From positions 248,001 to 312,000 of the forward strand of contig NZ_FNVA01000002.1 in NCBI RefSeq assembly GCF_900108185.1: a DNA stretch of 64,000 nucleotides. The letters run 5' to 3'. Of this stretch, positions 8,984 to 63,076 are shown piece by piece. The DNA comes from Bryocella elongata (lineage in GTDB: Bacteria > Acidobacteriota > Terriglobia > Terriglobales > Acidobacteriaceae). A program made the position numbers and the translations under genes. The notes beneath the pieces are model-generated. The model did not search any database. It saw only the letters and a list, made by a program, of their open reading frames with translations, and was not told where the DNA came from. Each line of letters starts with the position of its first letter. Position 1 is the stretch's first letter.

Positions 8984-9472
8984 ATGTACGAGGACTTTCG
9001 GGCGATCGACCGCTGGACCGGCGAAGAGCTGCACTGCGTTTGGAAGGGCACCGTTGTGGCCATCGCCACGCGCCATGCCGACGCGACAGACATCCGCTTT
9101 GCCGTGAACGGCAAGCCGCTCTGGATTGCCATGCCGAACACAGCGTGGGTGGAGCACAAGAAGAAGACCGGCAAGGCCATCACGGATTACCTCGCCGCGC
9201 AGACCGCGGGATGCTTCCTGAAGCAGCAGATCGAGGCCGGCTACGACAACGGTCGCGAGATGCTGACCATGAGTGTCCCCGAGGTGCTGGAGACGGCGGC
9301 TTCCGTGATGAAGGAAGCTGGTCACACGGCGAAGCTTCCCTCGCTGCCTGTCATCGACCGTGGCGCAACGCCGGAGTCCTTTGACTTCAAGCTGCCCGGC
9401 GAGCCGGAGACGCTGGCGCAGGACATCGCCAAGGCCCGGGGTACGGGTATGCCGGGCGCCGTCAACAGCTAA
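8984..9472 (+). CDS. Hypothetical cytosolic protein
   Basis: A 162-residue soluble protein that I do not recognise. It begins MYEDFRAIDRWTGEELHC and contains an alternating strand segment (VVAIATRHADATDIRFAVNG), a lysine-rich turn (WVEHKKKTGKAITDYLAAQ) and a Pro-rich tail. No signal peptide or membrane segment is present. It is divergent from the DUF481 gene and ends at its own strong terminator, which supports a single real gene. Confidence 0.65.
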   Translation: MYEDFRAIDRWTGEELHCVWKGTVVAIATRHADATDIRFAVNGKPLWIAMPNTAWVEHKKKTGKAITDYLAAQTAGCFLKQQIEAGYDNGREMLTMSVPEVLETAASVMKEAGHTAKLPSLPVIDRGATPESFDFKLPGEPETLAQDIAKARGTGMPGAVNS

Positions 9473-50331: not shown

Positions 50332-52431
50332 CTACTTCGTGGGCACGAGCCTCGTGCCCACGGCTTGGTACAGGTCATCGACGTCGTAGTGCTTCAGGAC
50401 GCCGGGGAGGATGTCCTCGGGCGCGTCCCTGGGCATGGGATCGGCGATGAGATCGCGGTAGTTAATGATCTCGCCGAGGACGAGAACGGACTTGAGTCGC
50501 GTATCGAGCACGGCCGCGTGGAGCAGCACGAGGGCGTAGTGGCCGGAGGCTTCGGCTGCAAGCCGCGGGGTGTGGGCTGGCTGCGAGTGCTGGGTTGTCA
50601 ACGTTGCGAGGTAGTTTGCCGCGACGATGGTGTCGTCGACGCGGAGACCAATGAGCGTGCGGCCAGTGAGTTCGGCACGCAGCTCCGTGAGATAGAACTC
50701 TCCCAGAACGCCAGCCTTGGATTCTTCATTGCCTTGCGGTGATGGACGCGGCTGCATCGCGAGAACCACGCCTCCCTCCTTGCTCTGTTTGAGGACTTTC
50801 TCTCGTAGCGACGGCGTGGGCTCGCCGGTCTTGTCGAACTCGTTGGTCAGGAGCAGCTTTCCATACTTCGGCTGTGACAACGCGCTGCTTCCCAGCAAAG
50901 CGTGGAAGTTGCTGCCTCCGGGATACGTGAAGGTCAATTCCAGCAGGCCGGGCGCGATGTCCTTGCCGGCGATCGAAACTGTGGCGGAGGGAGACAGCGT
51001 GCAGCTGCCCTCAAGACCTTCCAGATGGCAGCTGCCGGGGATCGCCATCGCATGCGTCACGCTGCGCACCGCCTGCTGCATCGCGAGAAGTCCCTTCGGA
51101 TGTGGCGTGACGACCTTCTCCGCGCGGGCTCGATTCAGCGTGAAGACGGTGGCTGCGTCGGGATAGGACGTCGCGACCTGTCCGGTCGGCGTCACTTGCG
51201 TGAGCTTGGGATCGGGTGGTGTGGGCTTCAACACCGGAAGAACGGTGGTGAAGGGATCGGTGATTGGAGGAAGGTTCTTCGCGTAGGCCGCGTCGGGATG
51301 AAGGTGTGCGGTGAAGAAGGCGAGGATCTGCGGAAGGATGGGCCGCAGGTTGCCATGGTGGCCGGGGCCTTTGATCCAGGTCAGGTTCGTGTCCGCGCCC
51401 AGATGAGCGTAGAACTTCTGCGCCTCGGCTTCGCTGGTGGTCGCTCCGGCGAAGGGGAACATGTCTTCCGTGGTCGAGATGATGGCGTAGGGACGGGGTG
51501 CTGCAACCTCGACCCAGTCCGGCAGGTCGAGACCGCTGGCGATGAAGTTGGGGATGGACTGCTCGGCGTCCTGGGGGCCGAGGGAGGGTAGCAGGGCGTC
51601 GAAGCTGGTGATGTAGCAGGCCACGCCGATGGCCGCGACGCGTGTGTCCAGCGCGCCCAGCAGTGCTGTGTCGGTGCCGCCGCCGGAGCAGCCGAAGGCT
51701 CCGATGCGCTTGCTGTCGACCTCAGGTAGCGAGGTGAGATAGTCGACGGCGCGCATGCCGTCCCACAGCATGTATTGCGCGATGGCGTTGCCGAGGAGGG
51801 TGGGTTGCAGGCCCGCTTCGCCGTGCTCGCCCGTGGGCGCCTTCGCCAGCGTTTTGCCTTCGTGCTGCGGATCGGGATACTGCAGGCGCTCGCCCTGGCC
51901 GAAGGGGTCCCAGCTGAGGACAACGAAGCCTGCGCGGGCGAAGGCTTCGGCGAAGGCGACGTCCCCGGCCTTGCCGCTGGGAGCGTGCCCGGGCGCCATG
52001 ACGATGGCTGGGAACTTCGTGGTCATGTCGCTGCCGTTGGGGCGGTCGGGCACGTAGAGCAGCGCCGTCACGTAGAACTTCGGCTGAGATTCATAGAGCA
52101 CGCGATCGACGCGGAAGCCCTCCAACTGCGTGGAGCCGGTGACCTGCGCGTTGAGCGGCGTGCGCCCAGGCAGCGGTCCGAGGAGTCGAAGCATGGTCGC
52201 GCGCACCTCGTGCTGGCGTGCTTCGGCGTCGGCGTTGCTCGCGATGGCAGCAACCTTGGCGCGGCGGGCAGCGGTCTCCTTCGCGGCGAGGGCGTTCAGC
52301 TCCTTGTTCAGCGACTCGCGGCCGGGGCTGGGGACAGGCTTTGCCGTCTGCCCGTGGAGGGCGTGCGTCAGAAGCAGGGGCATCAACAGGAGGGAGGCGA
52401 ATCGGGCGCGCGGCGAAAACCTGTCTGACAT
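50332..52431 (-). CDS. Secreted alpha/beta hydrolase (acetyl-xylan-esterase-like)
   Basis: A 699-residue exported protein with a signal peptide at residues 1-28 (FASLLLMPLLLTHALHGQ). Residues of about 90-370 form an acetyl-xylan-esterase-like hydrolase: PAIVMAPGHAPSGKAGD, GFVVLSWDPFGQGERL, nucleophile in GAFGCSGGGTDT, acid Asp in STTEDMFPFAG and base His in KGPGHHGNL. A C-terminal part of about 300 residues looks like a degenerate second hydrolase domain. Possible substrates are acetylated plant polysaccharides, by family only. The ATG at 52431 begins the signal peptide; no clear SD. Confidence 0.8.
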   Translation of the reverse strand: MSDRFSPRARFASLLLMPLLLTHALHGQTAKPVPSPGRESLNKELNALAAKETAARRAKVAAIASNADAEARQHEVRATMLRLLGPLPGRTPLNAQVTGSTQLEGFRVDRVLYESQPKFYVTALLYVPDRPNGSDMTTKFPAIVMAPGHAPSGKAGDVAFAEAFARAGFVVLSWDPFGQGERLQYPDPQHEGKTLAKAPTGEHGEAGLQPTLLGNAIAQYMLWDGMRAVDYLTSLPEVDSKRIGAFGCSGGGTDTALLGALDTRVAAIGVACYITSFDALLPSLGPQDAEQSIPNFIASGLDLPDWVEVAAPRPYAIISTTEDMFPFAGATTSEAEAQKFYAHLGADTNLTWIKGPGHHGNLRPILPQILAFFTAHLHPDAAYAKNLPPITDPFTTVLPVLKPTPPDPKLTQVTPTGQVATSYPDAATVFTLNRARAEKVVTPHPKGLLAMQQAVRSVTHAMAIPGSCHLEGLEGSCTLSPSATVSIAGKDIAPGLLELTFTYPGGSNFHALLGSSALSQPKYGKLLLTNEFDKTGEPTPSLREKVLKQSKEGGVVLAMQPRPSPQGNEESKAGVLGEFYLTELRAELTGRTLIGLRVDDTIVAANYLATLTTQHSQPAHTPRLAAEASGHYALVLLHAAVLDTRLKSVLVLGEIINYRDLIADPMPRDAPEDILPGVLKHYDVDDLYQAVGTRLVPTK

Positions 52432-52539
52432 GGTGCCCACTTGATACATCCGGAGATAGACCCCTGGCAAGGGCGTTCACGCGAACGCCACACTGACAGG
52501 ACGCGCGAACGCTATCATGGCAGGTGGAGGTCCGCCGCA

Positions 52540-53124
52540 ATGTCGAGAACTGAATCCACGATGGTCGAGCTAGGCACCATCGCTCCGCCGTTTGAGCTGC
52601 CCGATGTGGTCAGCGGCAAGGCGCTGGGCCGCGACGACATCTTTGCCGGACGGAAGGGCCTGCTGCTGGCCTTTGTCTGCGTGCATTGTCCCTATGTAAA
52701 GCATGTGGAAGAGGAGCTGGCGCGCATCGGCAAGGATTACTTCCAGGGCGGCAATGGGCCCATCGCGATGGCGGCGATCTCCTCGAACGACATCGTGCAG
52801 TATCCGGAGGATGGCCCCGATCAGATGTGCGAGCAGGCGTCGCGGCTGGGCTGGGAGTTTCCATATCTCTTCGACGAGACGCAGGAGGTGGCGCGTGAGT
52901 ATGAAGCTGCCTGCACCCCGGACTTCTTCGTCTTCAACGCCGATTTGAAGCTGGTCTATCGCGGCCAGCTGGACGACTCTCGCCCGCGCCGCAAGGACTT
53001 TGGCAACGACATCCCGGTGACAGGCAAAGACCTCCGCGCGGCGCTGGATGCGGTGGTAGCGGGCAAGCTTCCCGACGCTCATCAGGTGAGCAGCATTGGT
53101 TGCAACATCAAGTGGAAAGAGTAG
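52540..53124 (+). CDS. Thioredoxin-like / AhpC-TSA family protein
   Basis: A 194-residue protein with a thioredoxin fold: IAPPFELPDVVSGKALG, LLLAFVCVHCPYVKHVEEEL (a CxxC centre, CVHC), then FPYLFDETQEVAREYEAACT and PDFFVFNADLKLVYRGQLDD. This matches the 'thioredoxin family protein' group close to AhpC/TSA found in many Acidobacteria. It has no signal peptide, so it is likely cytosolic and reduces peroxide or disulfides. GGAGGT lies nine bases before ATG 52540. Confidence 0.87.
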   Translation: MSRTESTMVELGTIAPPFELPDVVSGKALGRDDIFAGRKGLLLAFVCVHCPYVKHVEEELARIGKDYFQGGNGPIAMAAISSNDIVQYPEDGPDQMCEQASRLGWEFPYLFDETQEVAREYEAACTPDFFVFNADLKLVYRGQLDDSRPRRKDFGNDIPVTGKDLRAALDAVVAGKLPDAHQVSSIGCNIKWKE

Positions 53125-53128
53125 AAGC

Positions 53129-53170
53129 GAGCTTCTAGCTTCTAGCCTAGCTTTTCGCCTCTAGCTGAGC
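53129..53170. repeat. Intergenic word-repeat element G (CTAGCTT words)
   Basis: Words TCTAGCT, TCTAGCC, CTAGCTT and TCTAGCTG follow each other from four bases after the thioredoxin-like gene's stop codon. GAAGC-GA-GCTTC forms a small hairpin. The element reaches to about 25 bases before the carbonic anhydrase start. Confidence 0.6.
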
Positions 53171-53194
53171 GCTGGGGCATACAGTTTCTAAGGA

Positions 53195-53872
53195 ATGAAC
53201 GCAGGCACTATGGATGAGACGCTTGAGCAGTTGAAGGAAGGTGTGCGCCGCTTTCGCACCCAGATTTATCCCGAACGCGCGGAGCAGTTTGCGCAGGCCG
53301 GAAGCGAGCCGCAGCGGCCGCATACGCTGTTCATCGCTTGCGCCGACTCGCGCGTGGACCCCAACCTGATCACCAGCACGACGACGGGCGAGGTCTTTGT
53401 GACGCGCAACATCGGCAACATGGTGCCGGCGTATGGCGAGATGCTGGGTGGTGTGAGCGCGGTGGTGGAGTTTGCGGTGACGGGGCTGAAGGTGCGCCAC
53501 ATCGTGATCTGCGGCCACTCCGACTGCGGCGCGATGAAGGCGTTGCTTGCGCCTGACAACAGCGGCAAGCTGCCGGCTGTGACGAACTGGCTGACGAACG
53601 CTCACGCAGCGCTGACCGTTGCCGAGACCGTGAACGAGCGGGATGTGGCTCAGGGGAGCGACAAGCCGTTGATCCTGGAGCTGACGGAGCAGAATGTGCT
53701 GCTGCAGATGCGGCACCTCAAGACGCATCCCTCGGTCGCGGGCGCCATGGCGCTGGGTGAGCTGACGGTGAGCGGATGGATCTACAACATCGGAACCGGC
53801 GAGGTGCGTGTGGCCGAGGACGGCGAGCGCACGTTCACCCTCATCGATCCGGCGCCGGAAGACGGCGTCTGA
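53195..53872 (+). CDS. can: Beta-class carbonic anhydrase
   Basis: A 225-residue zinc enzyme that interconverts CO2 and bicarbonate. The zinc ligands and catalytic dyad are in ACADSRVDP (Cys, Asp, Arg) and ICGHSDCGAMK (His, Cys). VFVTRNIGNMVPAYGEMLGG and the C-terminal VSGWIYNIGTGEV are typical. Starts at 53195 (AAGGA just upstream) or 53210 (GCAGG five bases upstream) are possible. The his operon promoter lies within 20 bases of its stop codon. Confidence 0.94.
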   Translation: MNAGTMDETLEQLKEGVRRFRTQIYPERAEQFAQAGSEPQRPHTLFIACADSRVDPNLITSTTTGEVFVTRNIGNMVPAYGEMLGGVSAVVEFAVTGLKVRHIVICGHSDCGAMKALLAPDNSGKLPAVTNWLTNAHAALTVAETVNERDVAQGSDKPLILELTEQNVLLQMRHLKTHPSVAGAMALGELTVSGWIYNIGTGEVRVAEDGERTFTLIDPAPEDGV

Positions 53873-53890
53873 AATCCGGGGTGGCGCGCA

Positions 53891-53920
53891 TTGACTTCGG
53901 GCGGCCCGGGCATCTACCCT
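53891..53920 (+). promoter_or_regulatory. Candidate his operon promoter
   Basis: TTGACT (53891-53896) matches five of six -35 positions. With an 18-base spacer the best -10 is TACCCT (53915-53920), weak but with the key T-A---T. Transcription would then start at about 53927-53929, at or just before the leader peptide ATG. Confidence 0.5.
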
Positions 53921-53928
53921 TACAGGAG

Positions 53929-54012
53929 ATGATCGTTCGGCTGCACCATCACGGACTCCACCATCACCATGCGAAGCGTGTGGCGGCGGTTCTGTCCGGA
54001 CAAGAGAAGTAG
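53929..54012 (+). CDS. hisL: Histidine operon leader peptide
   Basis: A 27-codon open frame with seven His codons in two runs (MIVRLHHHGLHHHHAKRV...), located between the carbonic anhydrase gene and the his operon and followed by a U-tailed hairpin. This is the architecture of the E. coli/Salmonella his leader, whose peptide has seven consecutive His. AGGAG directly abuts the ATG (no spacing), so initiation may be leaderless from a start near 53928. Ribosome stalling at the His codons when His-tRNA is scarce would favour the antiterminator. The peptide itself probably has no function. Confidence 0.82.
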   Translation: MIVRLHHHGLHHHHAKRVAAVLSGQEK

Positions 54013-54037
54013 TCGAAGCTCACCGGAAATGGACCAG

Positions 54038-54070
54038 GCCCGCTGCCGCGACACCGCGAGCGGGCTTTTT
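54038..54070 (+). terminator. his attenuator terminator hairpin
   Basis: GCCCGCT (54038-54044) pairs with AGCGGGC (54059-54065), nested CGCG-ACAC-CGCG, then TTTTT (54066-54070). It lies 26 bases after the leader stop codon and 128 bases before hisI. Its 5' arm (54040-54050) can instead pair with 53979-53989 just after the His codons (11 bp, three of them wobble) as an antiterminator. Confidence 0.8.
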
Positions 54071-54197
54071 GCTGCGCGGTGACGGGGCTTCCCCGCAGCA
54101 CACCGGACGGTCGCGAAGAGCACACCGGGCCGGCAGATCAACGAATTAACGAAGGATTGGCACCAGGAACTTCAGCAGGACATCCAGCAAGGAAACC

Positions 54198-54572
54198 ATG
54201 GCAGACCAGCAGACGCAGCCCACGAACTCCACCACACCCAGCCCCCTCATCGACTTCGCCAAGACCGGCGGCCTCGTCGCCGGCATTGTGCAGGACGCCG
54301 CCACCGGCCAGGTGCTCATGCTCGGCTTCCTCAACGAGGAGAGCTACCAGCACACCCTTCGCAACGGCTTCGTCACCTTCTGGTCACGCAGCCGGAGCAA
54401 GCTGTGGATGAAGGGCGAGACCAGCGGCAATCGCCTGCGGGTCGTGGAGATGGCCACCGATTGCGATAACGATGCTCTGCTCTTCAAGGTCGTCGTCGAA
54501 GGCGATGGCCTGGTGTGCCACGAAGGCACGGTGAGCTGCTTCACCAAGCCGATCCCTTTCGAGAAGGCCTAG
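54198..54572 (+). CDS. hisI: Phosphoribosyl-AMP cyclohydrolase
   Basis: A 124-residue single-domain enzyme that opens the adenine ring of PR-AMP (histidine step 3). Landmarks are LMLGFLNEESYQHTLRNGFV, WSRSRSKLWMKGETSGN, the metal motif TDCDNDALLF and CHEGTVSCF. There is no fused HisE pyrophosphohydrolase domain and no hisE in the window, so step 2 must be encoded elsewhere. An N-terminal extension of 18 residues is Thr/Pro-rich. SD AAGGAA precedes the ATG. First structural gene after the attenuator. Confidence 0.94.
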   Translation: MADQQTQPTNSTTPSPLIDFAKTGGLVAGIVQDAATGQVLMLGFLNEESYQHTLRNGFVTFWSRSRSKLWMKGETSGNRLRVVEMATDCDNDALLFKVVVEGDGLVCHEGTVSCFTKPIPFEKA

Positions 54573-54671
54573 GTTCTCCGTTGTCGGTTCTCCGTTCTCC
54601 GAGCCGACGACCCTGAACAAACGGAGAACGGACAACTGAGAACGAACAACTGGGAACGGATAACGGACAAC
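54573..54671. repeat. Intergenic word-repeat element D filling the hisI-hisG gap
   Basis: The left arm (54573-54600) is built from GTTCTCCGTTGTC and GGTTCTCCGTTCTCC words. The right arm (54623-54671) is built from GGAGAACGGACAAC, TGAGAAC, GAACAAC, TGGGAAC, GGATAAC and GGACAAC. The arms are reverse-complementary in several registers. The element starts one base after the hisI stop codon and ends three bases before the hisG ATG. The right arm supplies no normal SD. It will form a long hairpin in the his mRNA. Confidence 0.8.
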
Positions 54672-54674
54672 ATC

Positions 54675-55550
54675 ATGGCCAACAAGCTGAAGCTGGGAAT
54701 CCCGAAGGGCAGTCTGCAGGACGCAACGCTGGCGCTGTTTGCACGCGCTGGCTGGAACATCTACGCGAGCGGCCGGAGCTACTTTCCGACGATCGACGAC
54801 ACCGAGATTGAGTGCATGCTGGTGCGCGCGCAGGAGATGGCCCGCTATGTGGAGCATGGTGCGCTCGACGCTGGGCTTACGGGCAATGACTGGGTGCTCG
54901 AGAACCTTGCGGACGTGGAGCGCGTCACGTCGCTGACCTACTCCAAGCAGAGCAACACCCGCGTGAAGTGGGTGCTCGCGGTGCCTGAGGACTCGCCCTT
55001 CCAGAAGCCCGAAGATCTCGAGGGCAAGACCATCGCGACGGAGCTGGTGGAGTACACCAAGCGCTACTTCGCTGAGAAGAAGATCAACGTAAAGGTGGAG
55101 TTCAGCTGGGGTGCGACCGAAGTAAAGCCGCCAACGCTGGCCGATGCCATCGTTGAGGTGACCGAGACCGGAAGCTCGTTGCGCGCGAATCGCCTGCGCA
55201 TCATCGAGACCCTGATGGAGTCCGAGACTCAGCTGATCGCGAACAAGACCAGCTGGGCCGACGACTGGAAGCGCGAGAAGATCGAGACGCTGAGCCTGAT
55301 GCTGAACGGAGCGATGGCAGCGCAAAGCCAGGTGGGTCTGATGCTCAACGTGGAGAAGTCGAACCTCGACGCCGTGCTGGCCGTGCTGCCGGCGCTGAAC
55401 TCGCCCACGGTGAACCAGCTGCATGATTCGAACTGGGTGGCGGTGAATACGATCCTGGAGCAGTCGACGGTGCGGGATGTGATTCCGCAGCTGAAGGCGG
55501 CGGGCGGCACGGGGATTGTGGAGTATCCGTTGTCGAAGGTTGTGTTGTAG
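54675..55550 (+). CDS. hisG: ATP phosphoribosyltransferase, long form
   Basis: A 291-residue HisG_L enzyme, the first and committed step of histidine synthesis (ATP + PRPP). Landmarks are [52 protein letters not shown] and the PRPP loop [15 protein letters not shown]. The C-terminal domain of about 75 residues ([20 protein letters not shown]..., [20 protein letters not shown]) is the histidine-binding regulatory domain, so feedback inhibition should operate in addition to the leader control. No HisZ is needed for the long form. Confidence 0.95.
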
Positions 55551-55559
55551 GGAGGAAAC

Positions 55560-55907
55560 GTGAGGCGACGGCGACTGCAGGCGAAGGCTCGTGTACTCGC
55601 GCGAGCGGGAATCGATGGATCATTGGGCCCTGCCGAACTTTGCTTGTCTCTGTCGCCTTACACGTCTTGGGTTCCAGAGTATTTCTCCGAAGAGGAGAAG
55701 ATTCTGATCAAGGCCATCAACAGTGAGACGGATGATCTTCCTGTGGGTCGCCTCGCTGAAAATTGGCACCCGGATTTTCTGCCTGCGAGACTGGAACAGT
55801 TGGCTCGTTTTGAAACTCAGATTGCACCTCAAGTTCGATCGATGTGCGAGCAGATTCTTGTACGAGCGGGAGCGGCATCGGGGAAGCACATCGACGATGC
55901 AGCTTAG
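55560..55907 (+). CDS. Hypothetical protein within the his operon
   Basis: A 115-residue protein starting at GTG 55560, which has a perfect GGAGG seven bases upstream. It is Arg-rich at the N-terminus (MRRRRLQAKARVLARAG) and largely helical, with YFSEEEKILIKAINSETDDL, FLPARLEQLARFETQIAPQV and MCEQILVRAG. I do not recognise a family. Codon use is less GC-biased than hisG, so it may be a recent insertion between hisG and hisD. It is nine bases after hisG and 12 bases before the next gene, so it is co-transcribed. Confidence 0.6.
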   Translation: MRRRRLQAKARVLARAGIDGSLGPAELCLSLSPYTSWVPEYFSEEEKILIKAINSETDDLPVGRLAENWHPDFLPARLEQLARFETQIAPQVRSMCEQILVRAGAASGKHIDDAA

Positions 55908-55919
55908 GAGAGAACAACG

Positions 55920-56396
55920 ATGAAGAGTCCTTTGATCATTGCCCTGATCGTCGTCCTGGCCGTCGGTATCTTCGCCGCCGTGCGCTACTTCCTGGAGCGC
56001 GCACGGCAGAAGAAGATCGATGCCACGGGCACGGTCGTTTATGCCACGCTCGTCTCGTCGGAGCCGGTGAAGGTCTTCGGCAAACTGCAGGCGGACTTCG
56101 TGAAGATCAACATGCGCGTGCAGGAACCGGGCACCACCGAGTCGCGCGACGTATCGATGAGCACCCGCGTGCCTGCCAATCAGCGGCTTGAGGTTGGCAT
56201 GCGCATCCCCGTGGTGCTCGATCCCAAGAACCCCAAGCGCGTTTACCCCGCCAGCGAAGCTTCGGCCAAGCGGGTCGTAATGACCGGTTCGCGTGATGAG
56301 CGCCGCATGATGCAGCAGCAGCTTCGCTCGCCGGGCCGCGCTCCGCGCCAGCAACAGACCGGGTACATTCCGCCCAACATGGGCCGTCGCCGCTAA
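55920..56396 (+). CDS. Membrane-anchored protein of unknown function (his operon)
   Basis: A 158-residue protein with an N-terminal membrane anchor (residues 4-22, PLIIALIVVLAVGIFAAVRY). A beta-rich domain follows (ATGTVVYATLVSSEPVKVFG, RVPANQRLEVGMRIPVVLDP), then a basic, Gln/Arg-rich tail (MMQQQLRSPGRAPRQQQTG). The core resembles the DUF3592-like small beta domains but is too short to assign. AGGAG lies eight bases before the ATG. It has no obvious link to histidine synthesis. Confidence 0.65.
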   Translation: MKSPLIIALIVVLAVGIFAAVRYFLERARQKKIDATGTVVYATLVSSEPVKVFGKLQADFVKINMRVQEPGTTESRDVSMSTRVPANQRLEVGMRIPVVLDPKNPKRVYPASEASAKRVVMTGSRDERRMMQQQLRSPGRAPRQQQTGYIPPNMGRRR

Positions 56397-56431
56397 ATCT
56401 TCTGTTTGACCCCGAGGACACCCAACCAACG

Positions 56432-57691
56432 ATGAAGATCCTGAAGACATATGGCGAGACCGCTAACGCTGCTGAGAACGCCATTCGCCAGATAGAGCGC
56501 CGCGGCGCCACCAACACCGCCAAGGTTGACGACGTCGTCCATGAGATTCTCGACGCCGTTCGCTCGCGTGGTGATGCTGCACTGCGCGAGTACGCCGAAC
56601 GCTTCGATGCCCTCGCACCGGGGCAGTCTCTGCGCGTGACGCGTGAGGAGATGCAGGCCGCCTGGGAGTCACTGGGCGAAGAGCTTAAGGCTGCCATGCG
56701 CATGGCGCAGGCCAACATCCGCATCTTCGCGGAGAAGCAGCTGCCGCGTGCCTTCAGCTTCCGCCCGAGCGAGGGCATGGAGGTTGGTCAGGTCATTCGG
56801 CCGCTGGTCAGTGTGGGGTGCTACGTTCCTGGTGGACGGTACCCGCTGCCTTCGACGCTGCTGATGACCACCACGCCAGCGCAGGTCGCTGGTGTGGAGC
56901 GGATCGTCGTCTGCTCGCCGAAGCCCGCGCAGGAGACGCTCGCGGCCGCACACCTCGTCGGTGTCACGGAGTTCTATCGCATTGGCGGCGCACAGGCCAT
57001 TGCAGCGCTGGCGTACGGGACTGAGAGCATCGAGTCCGTGGACAAGATCGTCGGTCCGGGCAACATCTATGTGACTGCGGCCAAGTCGATCGTGAGCCTT
57101 GAGTGCGGCATCGATATGCCGGCTGGGCCGACGGAGATCGTCGTCACCACAGAGCACGGTGATCCCGATGGCGTCGCAGCCGATCTCGTCGCGCAGGCCG
57201 AGCATGATCCCGAGGCACTCGCGGTCCTCATCACTCCGAACGAAGAGCTTGCCGAGGCCGTGGTCCTTGAAGTGAAGCGCCAGGTCCAGGGCAATGCCAT
57301 TGCAGAGCAGTCGATTGCAGCGCAGGGCTATGCCTTCGTGACGCAGAGCCCTGATGAAGCTCGTGAGCTTACGAATCGTCTCGCGCCAGAGCACCTCACG
57401 GTCGATAGCGGCGCGGACCTGCGTTGGGTAAAGAACGCCGGTTCGGTCTTCGTTGGAAATCACACGCCGCAGTCCATGGGCGATTACATCAGCGGGCCGA
57501 ATCATGTGCTGCCCACGGGCCGCAATGGCCGCGTGCGCGGTGGGCTCAGCGTGCTGGATTTCATCAAGGTCATCACCGTGCAGCAGTACACGCTGGACGC
57601 GTTGCGTGTCGTTGGGCCGCACGCAATCACGCTCGCCGAAGCCGAAGGCCTCAAGGGCCATGCGGACAGTGTTCGCGTCCGCATGCGCTAG
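56432..57691 (+). CDS. hisD: Histidinol dehydrogenase
   Basis: A 419-residue zinc enzyme for the last two steps (histidinol to histidine, two NAD+). Landmarks are CYVPGGRYPLPSTLLMTTTP, VCSPKPAQETLAAAHLVGV, YRIGGAQAIAALAYGTESIE, KIVGPGNIYVTAAK, IDMPAGPTEIVV, QAEHDPEALAVLIT and the catalytic APEHLTVDSGADL followed by HTPQSMGDYISGPNHVLPTG. It is complete. It lies 35 bases after the preceding gene. Confidence 0.96.
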   Translation: MKILKTYGETANAAENAIRQIERRGATNTAKVDDVVHEILDAVRSRGDAALREYAERFDALAPGQSLRVTREEMQAAWESLGEELKAAMRMAQANIRIFAEKQLPRAFSFRPSEGMEVGQVIRPLVSVGCYVPGGRYPLPSTLLMTTTPAQVAGVERIVVCSPKPAQETLAAAHLVGVTEFYRIGGAQAIAALAYGTESIESVDKIVGPGNIYVTAAKSIVSLECGIDMPAGPTEIVVTTEHGDPDGVAADLVAQAEHDPEALAVLITPNEELAEAVVLEVKRQVQGNAIAEQSIAAQGYAFVTQSPDEARELTNRLAPEHLTVDSGADLRWVKNAGSVFVGNHTPQSMGDYISGPNHVLPTGRNGRVRGGLSVLDFIKVITVQQYTLDALRVVGPHAITLAEAEGLKGHADSVRVRMR

Positions 57692-57727
57692 GTTATTGCA
57701 CCGTTTTCACTCGCTGGAAGGATCACC

Positions 57728-58876
57728 ATGGCTCTCACCGCCGAAGACGTAATGCTGGTGCAGCCGCGGGCCCGCGTGCTCGCGATGCCCGAGTATCACC
57801 CGCCGCTCGCTGGCCGCGATGCCCTGCGGCTGGACTTCAACGAGAACACCTCTGCGCCGAGTCCGCGTGTCTTCGCGAAGCTTCAGCAGCTCAGCGCGGA
57901 AGGGCTCACGATCTATCCCGAGCGCACGCCGGTGGAGCGCATCGTCGCGGCACACTTTGGCCTCGCGAGCGAGCAGGTGCTGCTCACCAACGGCGTCGAT
58001 GAAGCGATTCATCTCATCGCGTGCACCTTTCTTGATGAGGGTGACGAGGCGCTGGTGTGGGTGCCAAGCTTCTTCATGTACGACGTCTCGATCAGCCTAA
58101 TGACGCCGGGCCTCAAGCGTGTGCAGAGCGATGACTCGCTGGCCTTCCCACGCGAGCGCTTTCTTGCAGGCATCACGCCGAAGACCAAGCTCATCATCGT
58201 GGCTTCGCCGAACAATCCGACGGGTGCGACGGTCGCTCGCGAAGACCTGCTGGCCATCGCCGCCGCCGCGCCGCATGCGGTGTTGATGGTGGACGAGGCG
58301 TACTTCCACTTCCACGGCGAGACGATGCTTGACGAAGTGAACTGCATCCCCAACCTGCTGGTCACGCGTACGTTTTCGAAGGCGTATGGCCTCGCGAACC
58401 TTCGCGTGGGCATGGTCGTTGGCGATGCGCGGCTGCTTGGCTTCCTGCGCAAGGCGAGCTCGCCGTACAACGTGAACGGTGTGGCGCTGGCGGTGCTGCC
58501 TGAAGCGATTGCGGATGAGGACTACCTCAACTGGTACGTTGCGCAGATGCGCGCAGGGCGTGAGCGGGCTTTTGCGGAGCTTGCGAAGCTGGGCGTCCCT
58601 ACGTGGCCTTCGGCCGCGAACTTCGTGCTGATGGATATCGGCCCGAAGCATAAGCAACTGGTAGAAGCGATGCGCGAGCGTGGCGTGCTGCTGCGCGATC
58701 GTTCCTCCGATCCGGGCTGCGATGGCTATGTGCGACTCACCATCGGTCTCGAAGATCAGATGACGCAGGGCCTCGCAGCGTTGAAGGATTCGCTTGATGC
58801 CATCGGCTGGACGCCTGCCGAGGCGCGGCATGCACGCGGGACCTCGAGCGAAGGGCATGAGTATGAGTATGAGTAA
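57728..58876 (+). CDS. hisC: Histidinol-phosphate aminotransferase
   Basis: A 382-residue PLP enzyme that makes histidinol phosphate from imidazole acetol phosphate and glutamate. Visible: RLDFNENTSAPSPRV, NGVDEAIHLIACTFLDEGDE, VASPNNPTGATV, MVDEAYFHFHGET and the PLP lysine in TRTFSKAYGLANLRVGMVVG, followed by SPYNVNGVA. The last codons form an (ATGAGT)3 repeat, giving the C-terminus HEYEYE and, in another frame, the start of the next gene. GGAAGG precedes the ATG. Confidence 0.95.
   Translation: MALTAEDVMLVQPRARVLAMPEYHPPLAGRDALRLDFNENTSAPSPRVFAKLQQLSAEGLTIYPERTPVERIVAAHFGLASEQVLLTNGVDEAIHLIACTFLDEGDEALVWVPSFFMYDVSISLMTPGLKRVQSDDSLAFPRERFLAGITPKTKLIIVASPNNPTGATVAREDLLAIAAAAPHAVLMVDEAYFHFHGETMLDEVNCIPNLLVTRTFSKAYGLANLRVGMVVGDARLLGFLRKASSPYNVNGVALAVLPEAIADEDYLNWYVAQMRAGRERAFAELAKLGVPTWPSAANFVLMDIGPKHKQLVEAMRERGVLLRDRSSDPGCDGYVRLTIGLEDQMTQGLAALKDSLDAIGWTPAEARHARGTSSEGHEYEYE
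58857..58874 (+). repeat. Hexamer microsatellite (ATGAGT)3 at the hisC / next-gene overlap
   Basis: Three perfect ATGAGT copies supply both the HEYEYE end of HisC and three alternative in-frame ATG codons (58857, 58863, 58869) for the next gene. Whole-copy slippage would keep both frames intact but change the number of starts. Confidence 0.75.
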
Positions 58877-59105
58877 GGGCGTCAGCTCCGCGCAGCGCAA
58901 GGGGCTGCTCATCATTGGCAGCGTTGTAGCCATGAGTGGCGTTGCGGCGTCGCTGGGGCAGAAGTTCCCCTTAGTGGTGTGGCTCTACGGGGCCTATCTG
59001 CTCTGCGCGTTCGGTTATGTGGTCGTGCAGCTGGTCAAGGTCAAGCGGTTGCAGAAGCGCCGCAAGAGCCTGTCCGCCGCGACAGGCAGGGGAGGAAGAG
59101 CATGA
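58857..59105 (+). CDS. Small two-helix membrane protein (his operon)
   Basis: An 82-residue protein (or 80 or 78 from later ATGs) with a polar start ([15 protein letters not shown]), two hydrophobic helices ([19 protein letters not shown] and [20 protein letters not shown]) and a very basic tail ([19 protein letters not shown]). It overlaps hisC by 20 bases and hisB by 4 (ATGA), so translation is tightly coupled with both. I do not recognise the family. Confidence 0.75.
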
Positions 59106-59740
59106 GCGAGATCGTAAGTGAGCTGGGCGTGACGCCCGTCGCTGTTGAGGCCGAACGCATCGGCACCGTGAACCGTAAGACGCTGGAGACGGACATTGCG
59201 CTGCGGCTGAACGTGGATGGCATGGGCACGTACAAGGTGTCGACGGGTATCCGCTTCTTCGACCACATGCTGGAGAGCTTTGCCAAGCATGGCGGCTTCG
59301 ACCTGGAGCTGAAGTGCATCGGGGACCTCGACGTCGACCAGCACCACACCGTCGAGGATGTGGGCATCGCGCTGGGGGAAGCCTTCGCCGAAGCTCTCGG
59401 CGACAAGCGCGGCATCCTGCGGGCGGGATACTTTGTGATGACGATGGATGAGACGCTGGCTGTCGCTGCTGTCGATCTCTCGGGTCGCGTGGCTTGTGTG
59501 GTGGATGATCAGTTGACCGCGCCGGTGGTTGGTGACCTTGTCACCGAGCTGGTGCCGGACTTCTTCGATGGGTTCGCTCGTGGAGCGAAGTGCAACGTGC
59601 ACGTGAAGACGATGTATGGGCGTAACAACCATCACAAGATTGAAGCGATCTTCAAGGCGTTTGCGCGAGCGATGCGGGGAGCTTGCTCGAAGGATGAGCG
59701 CATGCGGGAGCTGCTGCCGAGCACGAAGGGGTTGCTGTGA
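59102..59740 (+). CDS. hisB: Imidazoleglycerol-phosphate dehydratase
   Basis: A 212-residue manganese enzyme of histidine step 6, the monofunctional form without a histidinol-phosphatase domain. Landmarks are [55 protein letters not shown] and [20 protein letters not shown]. The N-terminus is about 20 residues longer than usual. It overlaps the preceding gene by ATGA and the following gene by GTGA. A histidinol-phosphate phosphatase is not in the window. Confidence 0.95.
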
Positions 59741-60024
59741 GCCTCGCTCCACTGCGGCGCATCTACCTCGCCTCTGCCGCGACAGTTTGCGCGTTGGCTG
59801 CGATCGGGGTTTGCTTTTCTCATCCCAGGCCGCCCATGGATCTTGGAGCGTGGACTCTCATGGGCATCGTCCTGCTCTGCGCGATGACTGCGTCGGTTCT
59901 CCTGCATCCGCTGCGTGCGAACAAAGGTGTCCGTCTTTACGAGGCGGTGACGCTCACCATTGCCGCTGTTGCTGTGATTATGACTGCCGGCGCCAGGATC
60001 ATGGCCTGGGCCATCTATCACTGA
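59737..60024 (+). CDS. Small three-helix membrane protein (his operon)
   Basis: A 95-residue protein starting at GTG 59737, overlapping the hisB stop codon by four bases. Helices: [39 protein letters not shown] and [19 protein letters not shown]. No family recognised. The GTGA overlap and composition argue for a real, translationally coupled gene. Confidence 0.7.
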
Positions 60025-60063
60025 TATGGCGGCTCTGATTGCTAAAGTTCGAGGGGTTGATTG

Positions 60064-60330
60064 ATGACCGTTGAGTTGTCGAAAGAGAATCGCGCGGAAG
60101 CGATTGCGTCGATGCAGCAGTACTTCGAGCGCAACCTGCCGGAGCCGATCGGTGAGTTGCCTGCCGGGTTGCTGTTGGATTTCTTCCTCACTGAGGTTGG
60201 GCCGCTGCTCTACAACCAGGGGGTGCGCGATGCCGCAACGCGGATGACGCAACGTATCGAAGACCTTGAAGGTGAGCTGAATGAGGACGCCTTCACGTAC
60301 TGGGTGAAGCAGAAGAGCAAGCGGCGATAG
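60064..60330 (+). CDS. DUF2164 family protein
   Basis: An 88-residue protein with the DUF2164 signature: LSKENRAEAIASMQQYFERN, LPEPIGELPAGLLLDFFLTE, VGPLLYNQGVRDA and EDLEGELNEDAFTYW. Members are small cytosolic proteins of unknown function, found scattered in Proteobacteria and Acidobacteria. It lies in the slot where a hisE gene could be expected but lacks HisE motifs. It ends 18 bases before hisH. Confidence 0.88.
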   Translation: MTVELSKENRAEAIASMQQYFERNLPEPIGELPAGLLLDFFLTEVGPLLYNQGVRDAATRMTQRIEDLEGELNEDAFTYWVKQKSKRR

Positions 60331-60348
60331 GCGGGCGCAAGGGACTTC

Positions 60349-60960
60349 ATGATCGCAGTCATTGACTACAAAGCGGGCAATCTTACCAGCGTCGTGAAGG
60401 CGCTGAAGTTTCTCGGTGCGGACGACATCGTCGTGACGCAGAAGCCGGATGATGTGTTGCGGGCGGACAAGGTGGTGCTCCCGGGCGTGGGGCACTTTCA
60501 GGCGACGCAGCTGTTGGAAGACCTTGCGCTGACGCAAGCGGTGCGCGAGATCGCGGCCAAGGGCACGCCATTCCTGGGCATCTGCGTTGGATTGCAGTGG
60601 CTGTATGAAGGGTCGACCGAAGCTCCGAATACGTTAGGACTTGGCCACTTTGCAGGGCAGTGCGAGCGCTTTCCCGCAGCGTATGAGGGCGCGGAGCTGA
60701 AGTCGCCGCACGTGGGCTGGAACTCGCTGGAGGATGTGCGCGCGGACTCGCGGCTGTTGAAGGACGTCACGCCGGGAAGCTTTGTGTACTACACGCATTC
60801 GTGGCGTGCGCCGCTAGGTGCGGACACCGCAGCTTCGACGATGTATGGCGGTGCCTTTACCGGTGCGGTCGAGCGCGACAACGTGATGGGTGTGCAGTTC
60901 CATCCGGAGAAGTCAGCGGAGACCGGGCTGAAGGTGCTGAAGAACTTTCTGGAGCTGTAG
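60349..60960 (+). CDS. hisH: Imidazole glycerol phosphate synthase, glutaminase subunit
   Basis: A 203-residue class I glutamine amidotransferase that feeds ammonia to HisF. The N-terminus is MIAVIDYKAGNLTSVVKALK. The nucleophile is Cys79 in FLGICVGLQWLYEGS, followed by the oxyanion-strand PHVGWNSLE, FVYYTHSW and the catalytic His-Pro-Glu in GVQFHPEKS. SD AAGGGA. It ends three bases before hisF, so the two subunits are made together. Confidence 0.95.
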   Translation: MIAVIDYKAGNLTSVVKALKFLGADDIVVTQKPDDVLRADKVVLPGVGHFQATQLLEDLALTQAVREIAAKGTPFLGICVGLQWLYEGSTEAPNTLGLGHFAGQCERFPAAYEGAELKSPHVGWNSLEDVRADSRLLKDVTPGSFVYYTHSWRAPLGADTAASTMYGGAFTGAVERDNVMGVQFHPEKSAETGLKVLKNFLEL

Positions 60961-60963
60961 GAC

Positions 60964-61743
60964 ATGCTTACTAAACGAATCATCGCCTGCCTGGACGTAC
61001 GCGGAGGCCGCGTTGTCAAAGGTATCCAGTTCGTCGACATCATTGACGCCGGCGATCCGGCGGAGCTGGCCCATCGTCATGCGGCTGCCGGAGCCGACGA
61101 GATCGTGCTGCTCGACATTACTGCGACTCATGAAGGTCGCGGCACGCTGCTGGAAACGGTGAAGCGCACCGCCTCGCAGCTCTTTGTGCCGTTCACTGTC
61201 GGCGGAGGCATTCGTTCGGCGGAAGAGGCTGCCGCGGTGTTCGATGCGGGCGCGGATAAGGTCTCCATCAACTCCTCTGCAGTCTCGCGGCCCGAGCTGA
61301 TCGGCGAGATTGGTTCGAGCTTCGGAGCGCAGGCGGTGATCGTCGCGATCGATGCGCGGCGTGCGGCTGGCAGTGCTGATCCCGTGCGCGAAGCCGAGGT
61401 CTACGTGAGTGGTGGCCGCAAGCCGACGGGGCTGCGTGTCGTCGACTGGGCGATTGAAGCCGAGGCGCGTGGCGCGGGTGAGATTCTGCTGACCTCGATG
61501 GACTCCGACGGCATGCGCAACGGCTTCGATTGCGAGTTGACGCGAGCGGTGAGCGAGGCGGTGCAGATCCCGGTCATCGCTTCGGGCGGTGCTGGCTCGG
61601 CGGCTCACTTTGCAGAGGTCTTTCTTGCAGGCAAGGCTGACGCAGCGCTGGCTGCGAGCATCTTCCACTTCGGTGTAACGGACTCCCGCGTGCTCAAGGC
61701 GGAGGTCGCGCGTGCGGGCGTGCCGATGCGTTTGCCCTGTTAG
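60964..61743 (+). CDS. hisF: Imidazole glycerol phosphate synthase, cyclase subunit
   Basis: A 259-residue (beta/alpha)8-barrel forming IGP and AICAR from PRFAR and ammonia. Landmarks are [20 protein letters not shown], with the catalytic Asp of [72 protein letters not shown] with the second catalytic Asp, and [17 protein letters not shown]. It pairs with hisH just upstream. Confidence 0.96.
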
Positions 61744-61911
61744 CCCTGTAAGTCGTGTTGCCGGATAGAGTTCGAAGCGCAAGTGACGCGGATGCCGCAA
61801 TTTGCGACGCTTCGTCCCCGGCGCGGCGGAGCTTGTTGTCTGCGAGTACACCACGCAACACTCCTTGATCTACGTCGATAGGTACCTCCGTCTGGTTACC
61901 AGGAGGTCAGT

Positions 61912-62331
61912 GTGCGTGCAAAGTCGTTGATCGTGATTGCCGTGATTCAGGTCGCGGCGGCTTTGGGTACGAGCTTCCTTCCAGCGCAACCAGCACAGGG
62001 CACAAAGCCTCAGCCAACGGCCGTGCAGACGATCTGCGCGAGGGTGCAGGACCCTTCCACCACTGCGCTGCGTCTGGTGGTCGAACAGGGACAGCTGCGC
62101 AGGGCCATGCCTGGCGTACCCTGGACGCTGCTGCTGGCTCTTCTCACCGTGCCGTGCAATATCGTGGTCTGGCAGGCCCTCTGGCGTGTCCTTGCCGGTG
62201 ATGGTCTGAGTTCCAGCGAATCCGAGGACTGGTCCTCGCGCACGCTGCAGCGAACGATGGTGATTCCTCAGACCGGCAGCGTCAACGGCAGCTGGACCTT
62301 TCCATCGTCGATGACCACGCACCGTCGCTAG
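61912..62331 (+). CDS. Hypothetical membrane-associated protein (his operon)
   Basis: A 139-residue protein from GTG 61912, with a perfect AGGAGG at 61900-61905. A signal-like or anchor segment at residues 4-24 (SLIVIAVIQVAAALGTSFLP) and a second hydrophobic helix (TLLLALLTVPCNIVVWQALW) flank a polar region of about 45 residues. The C-terminus is Ser/Thr-rich. No family recognised. It separates hisF from hisA with larger gaps on both sides (168 and 43 bases). Confidence 0.65.
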   Translation: MRAKSLIVIAVIQVAAALGTSFLPAQPAQGTKPQPTAVQTICARVQDPSTTALRLVVEQGQLRRAMPGVPWTLLLALLTVPCNIVVWQALWRVLAGDGLSSSESEDWSSRTLQRTMVIPQTGSVNGSWTFPSSMTTHRR

Positions 62332-62374
62332 CGAGTCGCGATGCTCGCGACCTGTCTGCTGCGACAATAGAAGC

Positions 62375-63076
62375 ATGCTCATTCCTTCCATTGATCTGAT
62401 GGGCGGCCGCATTGTGCAGCTCGTCCAGGGCGAGACCCTGAAGCTGGCGTTTGATGACTTCGAATACTGGATCGAACGCTTCTCGAAGTATCCGCTGGTG
62501 CAGTTAATTGACCTCGATGCCGCGATGCGGCAGGGCTCGAACGCCGAGCTCGTTGCGATGATCTGCAAGCGGCTTCCATGTCAGGTGGGCGGCGGTCTGC
62601 GCTCGGCCGAAGACGGCAAGCGGCTGCTGGACCTGGGTGCGAAGCGCGTGATCTACGGGTCATCGTTGTTTGGAACCTCGGAAGACGGCGAAGCACGCCG
62701 CCACAAGCTCATCAGACTGGAGTTCGCCGAGGGCCTGAAGAAGGTGCTTGGCGAAGACGCGTTGTGCTTCTCCGTGGATACGAAGAAGGGCCAGGTGGCG
62801 GTGAAGGGCTGGAAGGACTCGGTCGCGCTCACACCGGAAGAGGCCGTGACGTGGCTGGAGGACTCCTGCTCGGCGTTCCTTTACACCCACGTGGACACCG
62901 AAGGCACGATGAGCGGTTTCCCGATTGACGTGGCTGCGATTCTCAGGTCGACGACGGCGAAGCAGCTGATCGTAGCCGGGGGAATCAAAGAGCAGCGCGA
63001 GATCGACGAGCTGGACGCCATGGGCGTGGACGCCGTCGCGGGCATGGCGGTCTACTCGGGAGCGATGGACGCGTAA
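62375..63076 (+). CDS. hisA: ProFAR isomerase (HisA)
   Basis: A 233-residue (beta/alpha)8-barrel isomerase, histidine step 4. The start MLIPSIDLMGGRIVQLVQGE has the catalytic Asp. DLDAAMRQGSNAELVAMICK, VGGGLRSAEDGKRLLDLGA, CFSVDTKKGQVAVKGW, THVDTEGTMSGF with the second catalytic Asp, and LIVAGGIKEQREIDELDAM follow. Some blocks differ from the E. coli pattern (for example the AFDDFEYWIERFSKYP insertion), giving it a eukaryote- or plant-like HisA flavour. It is the last his gene of the cluster. Confidence 0.92.
   Translation: MLIPSIDLMGGRIVQLVQGETLKLAFDDFEYWIERFSKYPLVQLIDLDAAMRQGSNAELVAMICKRLPCQVGGGLRSAEDGKRLLDLGAKRVIYGSSLFGTSEDGEARRHKLIRLEFAEGLKKVLGEDALCFSVDTKKGQVAVKGWKDSVALTPEEAVTWLEDSCSAFLYTHVDTEGTMSGFPIDVAAILRSTTAKQLIVAGGIKEQREIDELDAMGVDAVAGMAVYSGAMDA

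Follow-up and report, generated by a model that had tools for sequence, protein, structure and literature searches.

A putative leaderless histidine attenuator upstream of the his operon in Bryocella elongata and other Acidobacteriota

Ribosome-mediated attenuation of the his type is already known. In the cited portions of the literature on enterobacterial hisL, a short leader ORF with a run of His codons, alternative RNA folds and a terminator are described as sensing charged tRNA-His (PMC3896937, PMC9413887). His attenuators were also proposed for Firmicutes, i.e., for the Bacillus cereus group, Eubacteriales and Erysipelotrichales (PMC9413887, PMC2965389; cited in part), and the word "leaderless" was absent from the main texts of these two papers. 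A precedent for a leaderless leader peptide is trpL of Sinorhizobium meliloti (rnTrpL/peTrpL), whose transcript, in the cited part of the source, begins with the ATG of the leader peptide and gives rise to a small leaderless mRNA (PMC7298713). For three genomes of Acidobacteria, 13.3% of the genes on average (9.7–19.4%) were predicted to be leaderless (PMC3160421, cited in part), and neither "leader peptide" nor "attenuat-" occurred in the main text of that paper. No report of a his leader attenuator in Acidobacteria was found among the literature matches listed, and an earlier mention in the survey of Lopatovskaya (2010; PMID 20198868) is possible.

The window referred to below is the whole stretch of 64,000 nucleotides of Bryocella elongata that was analyzed. 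The region upstream of its his operon is very probably a ribosome-mediated transcription attenuator that senses charged tRNA-His and controls the operon, and whose leader mRNA is leaderless. As far as the sources cited above describe these systems, the locus resembles hisL in having a leader ORF with a His run, alternative RNA folds and an intrinsic terminator before the first his gene, and the Firmicute attenuators in that the his genes are preceded by a His-rich leader ORF and by hairpins for termination and antitermination. The Firmicute leaders contain three to five His in a row and belong to another phylum. Like S. meliloti trpL, it would combine an attenuator with a leaderless leader peptide, which is predicted here, whereas trpL precedes trp genes, belongs to another phylum and encodes a peptide that also acts in trans. 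The anatomy of the putative attenuator, its conservation, compensatory change, the mutual fit of leader and terminator and the spread within the phylum were shown at the sequence level. New relative to a preceding sequence-only reading of the window, which had proposed a His attenuator, are a conserved promoter, the leader-terminator fit, the occurrence outside the class and a modelled switch in the second His run.

Leader, terminator and his operon in the window

The following features were identified downstream of a carbonic anhydrase gene (53195-53872, same strand):

53929..54012, + strand: leader ORF of 27 codons, MIVRLHHHGLHHHHAKRVAAVLSGQEK, ATG at 53929 and stop at 54012 (ORF list with translation)
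53944..53952, + strand: first His run, three codons (sequence and ORF translation)
53959..53970, + strand: second His run, four codons, of which the first two are the modelled control codons
53967..53983, + strand: leader hairpin 1:2 (MFE fold, 53967-53973 paired with 53977-53983)
53979..53989, + strand: region 2, predicted 5′ arm of the antiterminator, inside the leader ORF (MFE fold)
54040..54050, + strand: region 3, predicted 3′ arm of the antiterminator and 5′ arm of the terminator (MFE fold, covariation and partner-swap test)
54037..54070, + strand: predicted intrinsic terminator, 3:4 stem 54037-54066 and U-run 54066-54070 (-20.3 kcal/mol)
54198..54572, + strand: hisI, phosphoribosyl-AMP cyclohydrolase, first gene of the operon (PF01502, E 3e-30)
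54675..63076, + strand: remaining his operon, hisG (HisG_C), hisD, hisC, hisB, hisH, hisF and hisA (Pfam, ORF list)

The leader ORF lies between the carbonic anhydrase gene and hisI, contains seven His codons among its 27 codons in the arrangement HHH-G-L-HHHH, and thus places a run of candidate control codons in a short ORF directly upstream of hisI-G-D-C-B-H-F-A. The terminator was found between this ORF and the first gene, and the antiterminator uses the 5′ arm of the terminator, so that the two are mutually exclusive. The sequence-only reading had described the ORF with the same limits and His runs, a 1:2 hairpin (53967-53972 with 53978-53983), a competing 11-bp antiterminator (53979-53989 with 54040-54050) and a terminator (54038-54065 plus TTTTT) about 128 bases before hisI. 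All of these were recovered: the MFE fold gave the 6 bp of the hairpin and one more, the same antiterminator pairs and a slightly longer terminator stem, with hisI starting at 54198.

The terminator was more stable than shuffled sequences (54036-54068, -21.0 kcal/mol, z -3.87), and it was not reported by a simple terminator scan of the window, probably because its stem has a 2-nt bulge. The leader hairpin alone was no more stable than shuffles (z 0.05 in the window). Together with its inner stems the antiterminator reached -31.0 kcal/mol (z -2.18). The MFE fold of 53929-54068 contained the leader hairpin and the terminator, while the antiterminator with further inner stems was the MFE fold of 53979-54052, i.e., of the part exposed downstream of a stalled ribosome while the 3′ arm of the terminator has yet to be transcribed.

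Region 2 falls within the leader ORF, 20 nt upstream of the stop codon. In the trp attenuation scheme the stop codon of the leader lies between regions 1 and 2, whereas here region 2 is inside the ORF and the stop codon falls between regions 2 and 3. The leader ORF of hisL has a 5′UTR and is preceded by a Shine-Dalgarno sequence; in contrast, the leader in the window is predicted to be leaderless. It further differs from hisL by the position of region 2 inside the ORF, by hisI as the first gene, by the lack of an Rfam family match and by the split His run, the run in hisL being of seven consecutive His according to the partly cited sources.

The Pfam order after hisI was hisG, hisD, an aminotransferase, hisB, a glutamine amidotransferase and two His_biosynth proteins, and the names hisC, hisH, hisF and hisA were assigned by gene order and reading. 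HisG had been taken for the feedback-inhibited long form by the sequence-only reading, and the C-terminal domain typical of this form, PF08029, was indeed present. Four short same-strand ORFs (55560-56396, 58794-59105, 59737-60330 and 61912-62331) apparently interrupt the operon and were by position not his genes. Between hisI and hisG (54573-54650) a near-perfect inverted repeat of 24 nt was observed, with arms 92% complementary and 23 nt apart. This repeat is of the GTTCTCCGTTGTC type and gave only weak Rfam matches; the corresponding 20-base word (up to 3 mismatches) was present in the window only as its two arms.

Promoter position and paired stems in near relatives

A HisI search of 28 same-genus genomes, of which 25 matched, and the best 80 loci of a genome-contig collection yielded 105 loci. 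Orientation was possible for 103, and removal of 15 duplicates left 88 distinct loci, comprising 25 from the same genus and the 63 nearest from the collection, not all of them assigned to the family. The two remaining loci, L081 and L094, also showed His-rich leaders but had no HisI motif by which to orient them. Labels included Granulicella, Terriglobus, Edaphobacter, Occallatibacter, Acidipila and other Acidobacteriaceae, and a few loci were apparently mislabelled. Odd labels were Rhodanobacteraceae (L046) and Verrucomicrobia (L027), the latter being wrong since L027 is identical to a same-genus locus. The same-genus locus L015 was identical to L037 (Granulicella sp. S156) over the compared stretch.

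A His-rich leader ORF, defined by at least 4 His in 10 codons, was present upstream of hisI in 88/88 loci, commonly in the form MS....HHxGHHHHHAxSVLAAVSGVAK. The start codon was ATG in 83 and GTG in 5. Upstream of the leader in the window the following elements were assigned:

53891..53896, + strand: putative -35 hexamer TTGACT (TTGAC[AT] in 88/88 near-relative leaders)
53915..53920, + strand: putative -10 hexamer TACCCT (18-nt spacer; start codon 9 nt past its last base)
53927..53929, + strand: putative start of the transcript, 0-2 nt ahead of the leader ATG (placed from the -10 position)

TTGAC[AT], a spacer of 16-18 nt and TANNNT were found in all 88 leaders, with TTGAC[AT] 34-45 nt before the chosen start codon. 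The start codon lay 7-11 nt after the -10 box in 80/88 and 13-17 nt after it in the other 8. Assuming a transcript start 7 nt after the -10 box, the predicted 5′UTR was 0-4 nt in 80/88 leaders. The start codon was picked among in-frame starts as the one nearest to 37 nt from TTGAC, and the -10 box was the best of the hexamers spaced by 15-20 nt; the match of promoter and start is therefore partly due to this selection. With a fixed rule, 80/88 leaders were positive compared to 5/17600 shuffled upstream sequences and 0/1310 other ATGs. In the window itself the promoter was missed by a consensus promoter scan; its -10 box is weak and 8 of 12 letters agree with the consensus by manual count.

Shine-Dalgarno-like words at -14 to -5 were detected in only 3/88 leaders. 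The sequence-only reading had taken an AGGAG abutting the ATG as a sign of a leaderless leader. This AGGAG was found in 1/88 leaders, the window's own, and is thus no conserved element; the leaderless prediction itself still follows, on the other ground that the end of the -10 box lies about 7 nt before the start (7-11 nt in 80/88) and that usable Shine-Dalgarno-like words are rare. The leader mRNA is thus predicted to be leaderless because of the conserved promoter position and not because of the AGGAG. The attenuator could instead possess a normal 5′UTR and be transcribed from further upstream, e.g., by read-through from the carbonic anhydrase gene, in which case TTGAC/TANNNT would not be the main promoter. 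The same-strand gene at 53195-53872 could supply such read-through and an AGGAG precedes the ATG in the window, but promoter boxes at similar spacing in 88/88 loci, the rarity of usable Shine-Dalgarno-like words, the restriction of the abutting AGGAG to the window and the -10-like boxes also seen close to the leader start at further his operons (49/55, see below) make this arrangement unlikely.

After removal of similar loci, 72 loci were kept for the stem alignment and 56 were aligned, L001 being the window. For the antiterminator (10 bp, 53980-53989 with 54040-54049), 95.0% of the cells were paired, compared to 31-50% after a slide of 1-3 columns, a comparison in which the unslid position is favoured because the structure was taken from the window itself. 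Cells with both partners changed numbered 26, compared to 9.3 (sd 4.3) in shuffled alignments, and 0/500 shuffles reached 26. The number of pairs with a double change (4) was reached by 30/500 shuffles and the number of pair types by 85/500, so that two of the five covariation measures were not extreme. The leader hairpin had 78.4% of its cells paired and showed a conserved 5-bp core with compensatory changes (19 double-changed cells vs. 4.7 in shuffles), although 73.0% were still paired after a slide of +2. For the terminator, 89.4% of the cells were paired and the covariation score was reached by 390/500 shuffles, most of the outer pairs hardly varying. Terminators stronger than -10 kcal/mol were present in 87/88 near relatives, and in 79/88 by a stricter scan. 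The sequence-only reading had made its proposal depend on conservation of the His codons and stems in relatives, and conserved they were, with the leader in 88/88, the antiterminator paired at 95.0% and the terminator in 87/88.

The codons after the last His were redrawn from the synonymous codons used in these leaders. Compared to the mean of the resamples, the fold of regions 2 and 3 was more stable in 88/88 loci, and at or beyond the 5% level in 46/88, suggesting that it is the RNA and not the peptide that is under selection here.

Spread within the phylum and fit of leader to terminator

Leaders were also found in other families of the class. In 57 loci the first his gene was preceded by at least 250 nt of sequence; 48 of them contained a His-rich leader within 600 nt upstream, and 29 of these had a promoter by the rule used for class and phylum loci (-35 box with at least 4/6 letters, 16-19 nt spacer, TANNNT ending 6-13 nt before the start). 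All 48 leaders were in the 51 loci that begin with hisI; the six loci beginning with hisF were short cut-outs in which the operon start may lie beyond the sequence. His-rich ORFs were present in 0/362 same-strand windows elsewhere in the class set. Outside the class, i.e., in loci labelled "same phylum", which should mean another class, 40 loci were fetched and 33 judged. A leader within 600 nt of the first his gene was found in 15 of the 33, with a promoter in 7, and no His-rich leader was found within this distance in 18. The first his gene after the leader was hisI, hisG or, once (L136), hisD. Away from his operon starts, His-rich short ORFs occurred in 2/1977 windows of 600 nt, and a promoter with a His-rich ORF by the same rule in 1/1977 (same-phylum loci).

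Fifty-five leaders were examined singly. Of these, 39 came from the 49 class leaders (the 48 above and L253, where just 233 nt of upstream sequence are present) and 16 from beyond the class (the 15 above and L147, with its leader about 1100 nt upstream of the hisG match). In 49 leaders the start codon was preceded at 6-14 nt by TANNNT, a loose criterion lacking a control of its own, and in 49 a terminator stronger than -9 kcal/mol was found.

Regulation might also act without the leader peptide, by a protein or a T-box-like tRNA sensor that uses stems 3:4 and 2:3, with the His codons incidental. Alternative stems would suit an RNA-binding regulator as well. An Rfam covariance search of 52000-56000 at E up to 10 gave four matches (E 0.54-4.1), none of them over the leader, and neither the T-box riboswitch nor any other Rfam family (such as His_leader, RF00514) had a covariance-model match in the leader. 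The concentration of His-rich ORFs at operon starts (15/33 vs. 2/1977 windows elsewhere) and the modelled equilibrium dip, which sits on the His codons (see below), likewise speak against this explanation, which we regard as highly unlikely.

Tree-based covariation with independent pairs gave no significance, with at most 3 usable pairs per site among the sites listed. This test being underpowered, a partner-swap permutation test was used instead, in which the stretch after the last His was hybridized in silico with the terminator arm of every locus. The input was 46 of the 55 individually examined leaders and 5 of the 88 near relatives, from which L147 was dropped as it lacks a terminator, leaving 50 loci (34 from other families of the class, 11 from outside the class and 5 near relatives). 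Nine leaders did not enter: L276 and L288 were near-copies of entered loci, L267 has its terminator far downstream, and L284, L287, L141, L143, L149 and L159 had no terminator or a weak one. With arm strength removed, own partners were better by 3.87 kcal/mol (permutation sd 0.42; 0/5000 permutations), and own partners beat the row median in 45/50 loci. The 11 loci from outside the class alone gave 4.05 kcal/mol (sd 0.84; 0/5000). With the leader in 88/88 near relatives and the antiterminator paired at 95.0%, an own-partner fit reached in 0/5000 permutations supports the His attenuator proposed by the sequence-only reading.

His-rich peptides can bind metals. The ORF could accordingly encode a small functional metal-binding peptide, with the terminator belonging to that small gene, and the next gene upstream encodes a carbonic anhydrase. 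The peptide tails of the swap-test loci were, however, unlike one another, their C-termini differing strongly between families, and thus the pairing with the terminator arm is what is kept. Since the synonymous resampling also points to selection on RNA, and since the ORF precedes the first his gene whether this is hisI, hisG or hisD, a metal-binding peptide is very improbable.

A covariance model of the attenuator gave one strong match per genome (E <1e-7) in 40/60 family genomes, and 14 of the remaining 20 had weaker matches only and 6 none at E 0.1; only part of these matches were checked for adjacent his genes. The three next-best matches in the genome of the window were rejected as His leaders, two being terminator hairpins after genes and the third lying in apparently coding sequence that reads as His-rich in another frame. 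Two family genomes gave additional full-length matches of lower strength (E ~1e-4), at G268:C1:666386-666508, G319:C9:28011-28152 and G319:C33:37983-38110, which are possibly further attenuators or only terminators.

Some loci deviated from the common layout. In L150, two different His-rich short ORFs were found in series before hisG (14208 and 14019, minus strand), possibly tandem leaders. In L172 (about 9426-9459, minus strand), promoter-like boxes seen by eye did not fit a leaderless start of the His-rich reading, and no -10-like box was found next to the leader start. A PRA-CH (hisI) match was missing in 55 of 149 Acidobacteriota genomes (set at least 80% complete), so that in some of them the histidine pathway may be absent or the enzyme may have diverged.

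Upstream of leuA, trpE and ilvB (20 loci each, maybe not always first genes), one match to promoter and leader was obtained. Its peptide, MRFLGER, has no relevant codons and was rejected as an attenuator leader. No leaderless-type start was found in six leu/ilv and trp stretches from two genomes. Several Trp-rich short reading frames in these stretches, unplaced relative to genes, were not taken for leaders.

Folding models, proposed mechanism and significance

A ribosome footprint of 31 nt was moved codon by codon over the leader with equilibrium folding of the free RNA. In the window, the terminator probability dropped to 0.36, 0.47 and 0.11 when codons 10, 11 and 12, respectively, were in the A site, i.e., the Leu codon and the two His codons that open the second run, and was at least 0.83 at all other positions; the first His run and codons 13-14 did not move it. 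As modelled, the second His run would be the switch in the window. A cruder model, in which all RNA up to 12 nt past the stalled codon was removed, gave terminator probabilities for the window of 0.96 and 0.45 when the ribosome was stalled at the first and the last His, respectively, and of 0.97 when it was at the stop codon.

Over the 88 loci the mean terminator probability was 0.82 just before the His cluster, 0.65 five codons in and 0.93 beyond. The minimum was below 0.5 in 42/88 loci (inside the His cluster in 36 of the 42, on a His codon in 30), and the probability never fell below 0.5 at any codon in 46/88; when the last His codon of the cluster occupied the A site, it was below 0.5 in only 16/88. 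The equilibrium default was the terminator, with means of 0.91 without ribosomes and 0.89 with a ribosome at the stop codon. For RNA ending before the 3′ arm of the terminator, pairing between region 3 and the leader had a mean of 0.61 with the ribosome before or on the His codons, and of 0.26 once it covered region 2. As the values before and on the His codons are the same, this second model does not single out the His stall; it tells apart ribosomes that have and have not yet moved past, but in it a stall at His looks the same as a ribosome that is early or missing.

The following account of where transcription starts and ends, of ribosome loading on a leaderless mRNA and of the histidine response is inferred from the sequences and folds. 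RNA polymerase would start at the leader ATG or within about 4 nt of it, and a ribosome would therefore have to load on leaderless mRNA. With plentiful His-tRNA, the ribosome would run through region 2 to the stop codon, terminator 3:4 would form and transcription would end before hisI. A ribosome that has reached the stop codon would be positioned between the two arms of the antiterminator, as region 2 is part of the ORF and region 3 follows the stop codon. With scarce His-tRNA, it would stall in the His run and cover the 5′ arm of the leader hairpin, thereby freeing region 2, which would pair with region 3, block the terminator and allow the his operon to be read. The outcome if no ribosome has loaded is less certain: the equilibrium fold would give termination, whereas before the 3′ arm of the terminator is made, region 3 would pair with the leader as readily as during a stall.

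We are slightly inclined to a broader view, in which the leaderless His attenuator is old and possibly ancestral in Acidobacteriota and was kept while the first gene changed (hisI, hisG, hisD), with the leader and terminator stems having co-evolved and with the first ribosome loading on a bare 5′ AUG so quickly that translation can be coupled to a transcription decision about 140 nt further on.

If true, the his attenuator would be an assignment across a good part of the phylum Acidobacteriota. Leaderless initiation and ribosome-timed attenuation, which are usually studied apart, would be combined in one element. As attenuation needs a ribosome to load soon after the RNA emerges, these leaders would be natural reporters of the speed of leaderless engagement, and they could also report whether this engagement needs intact 70S ribosomes. 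The recurrence of this layout in many related bacteria would make them a good natural test of leaderless translation steering gene expression.
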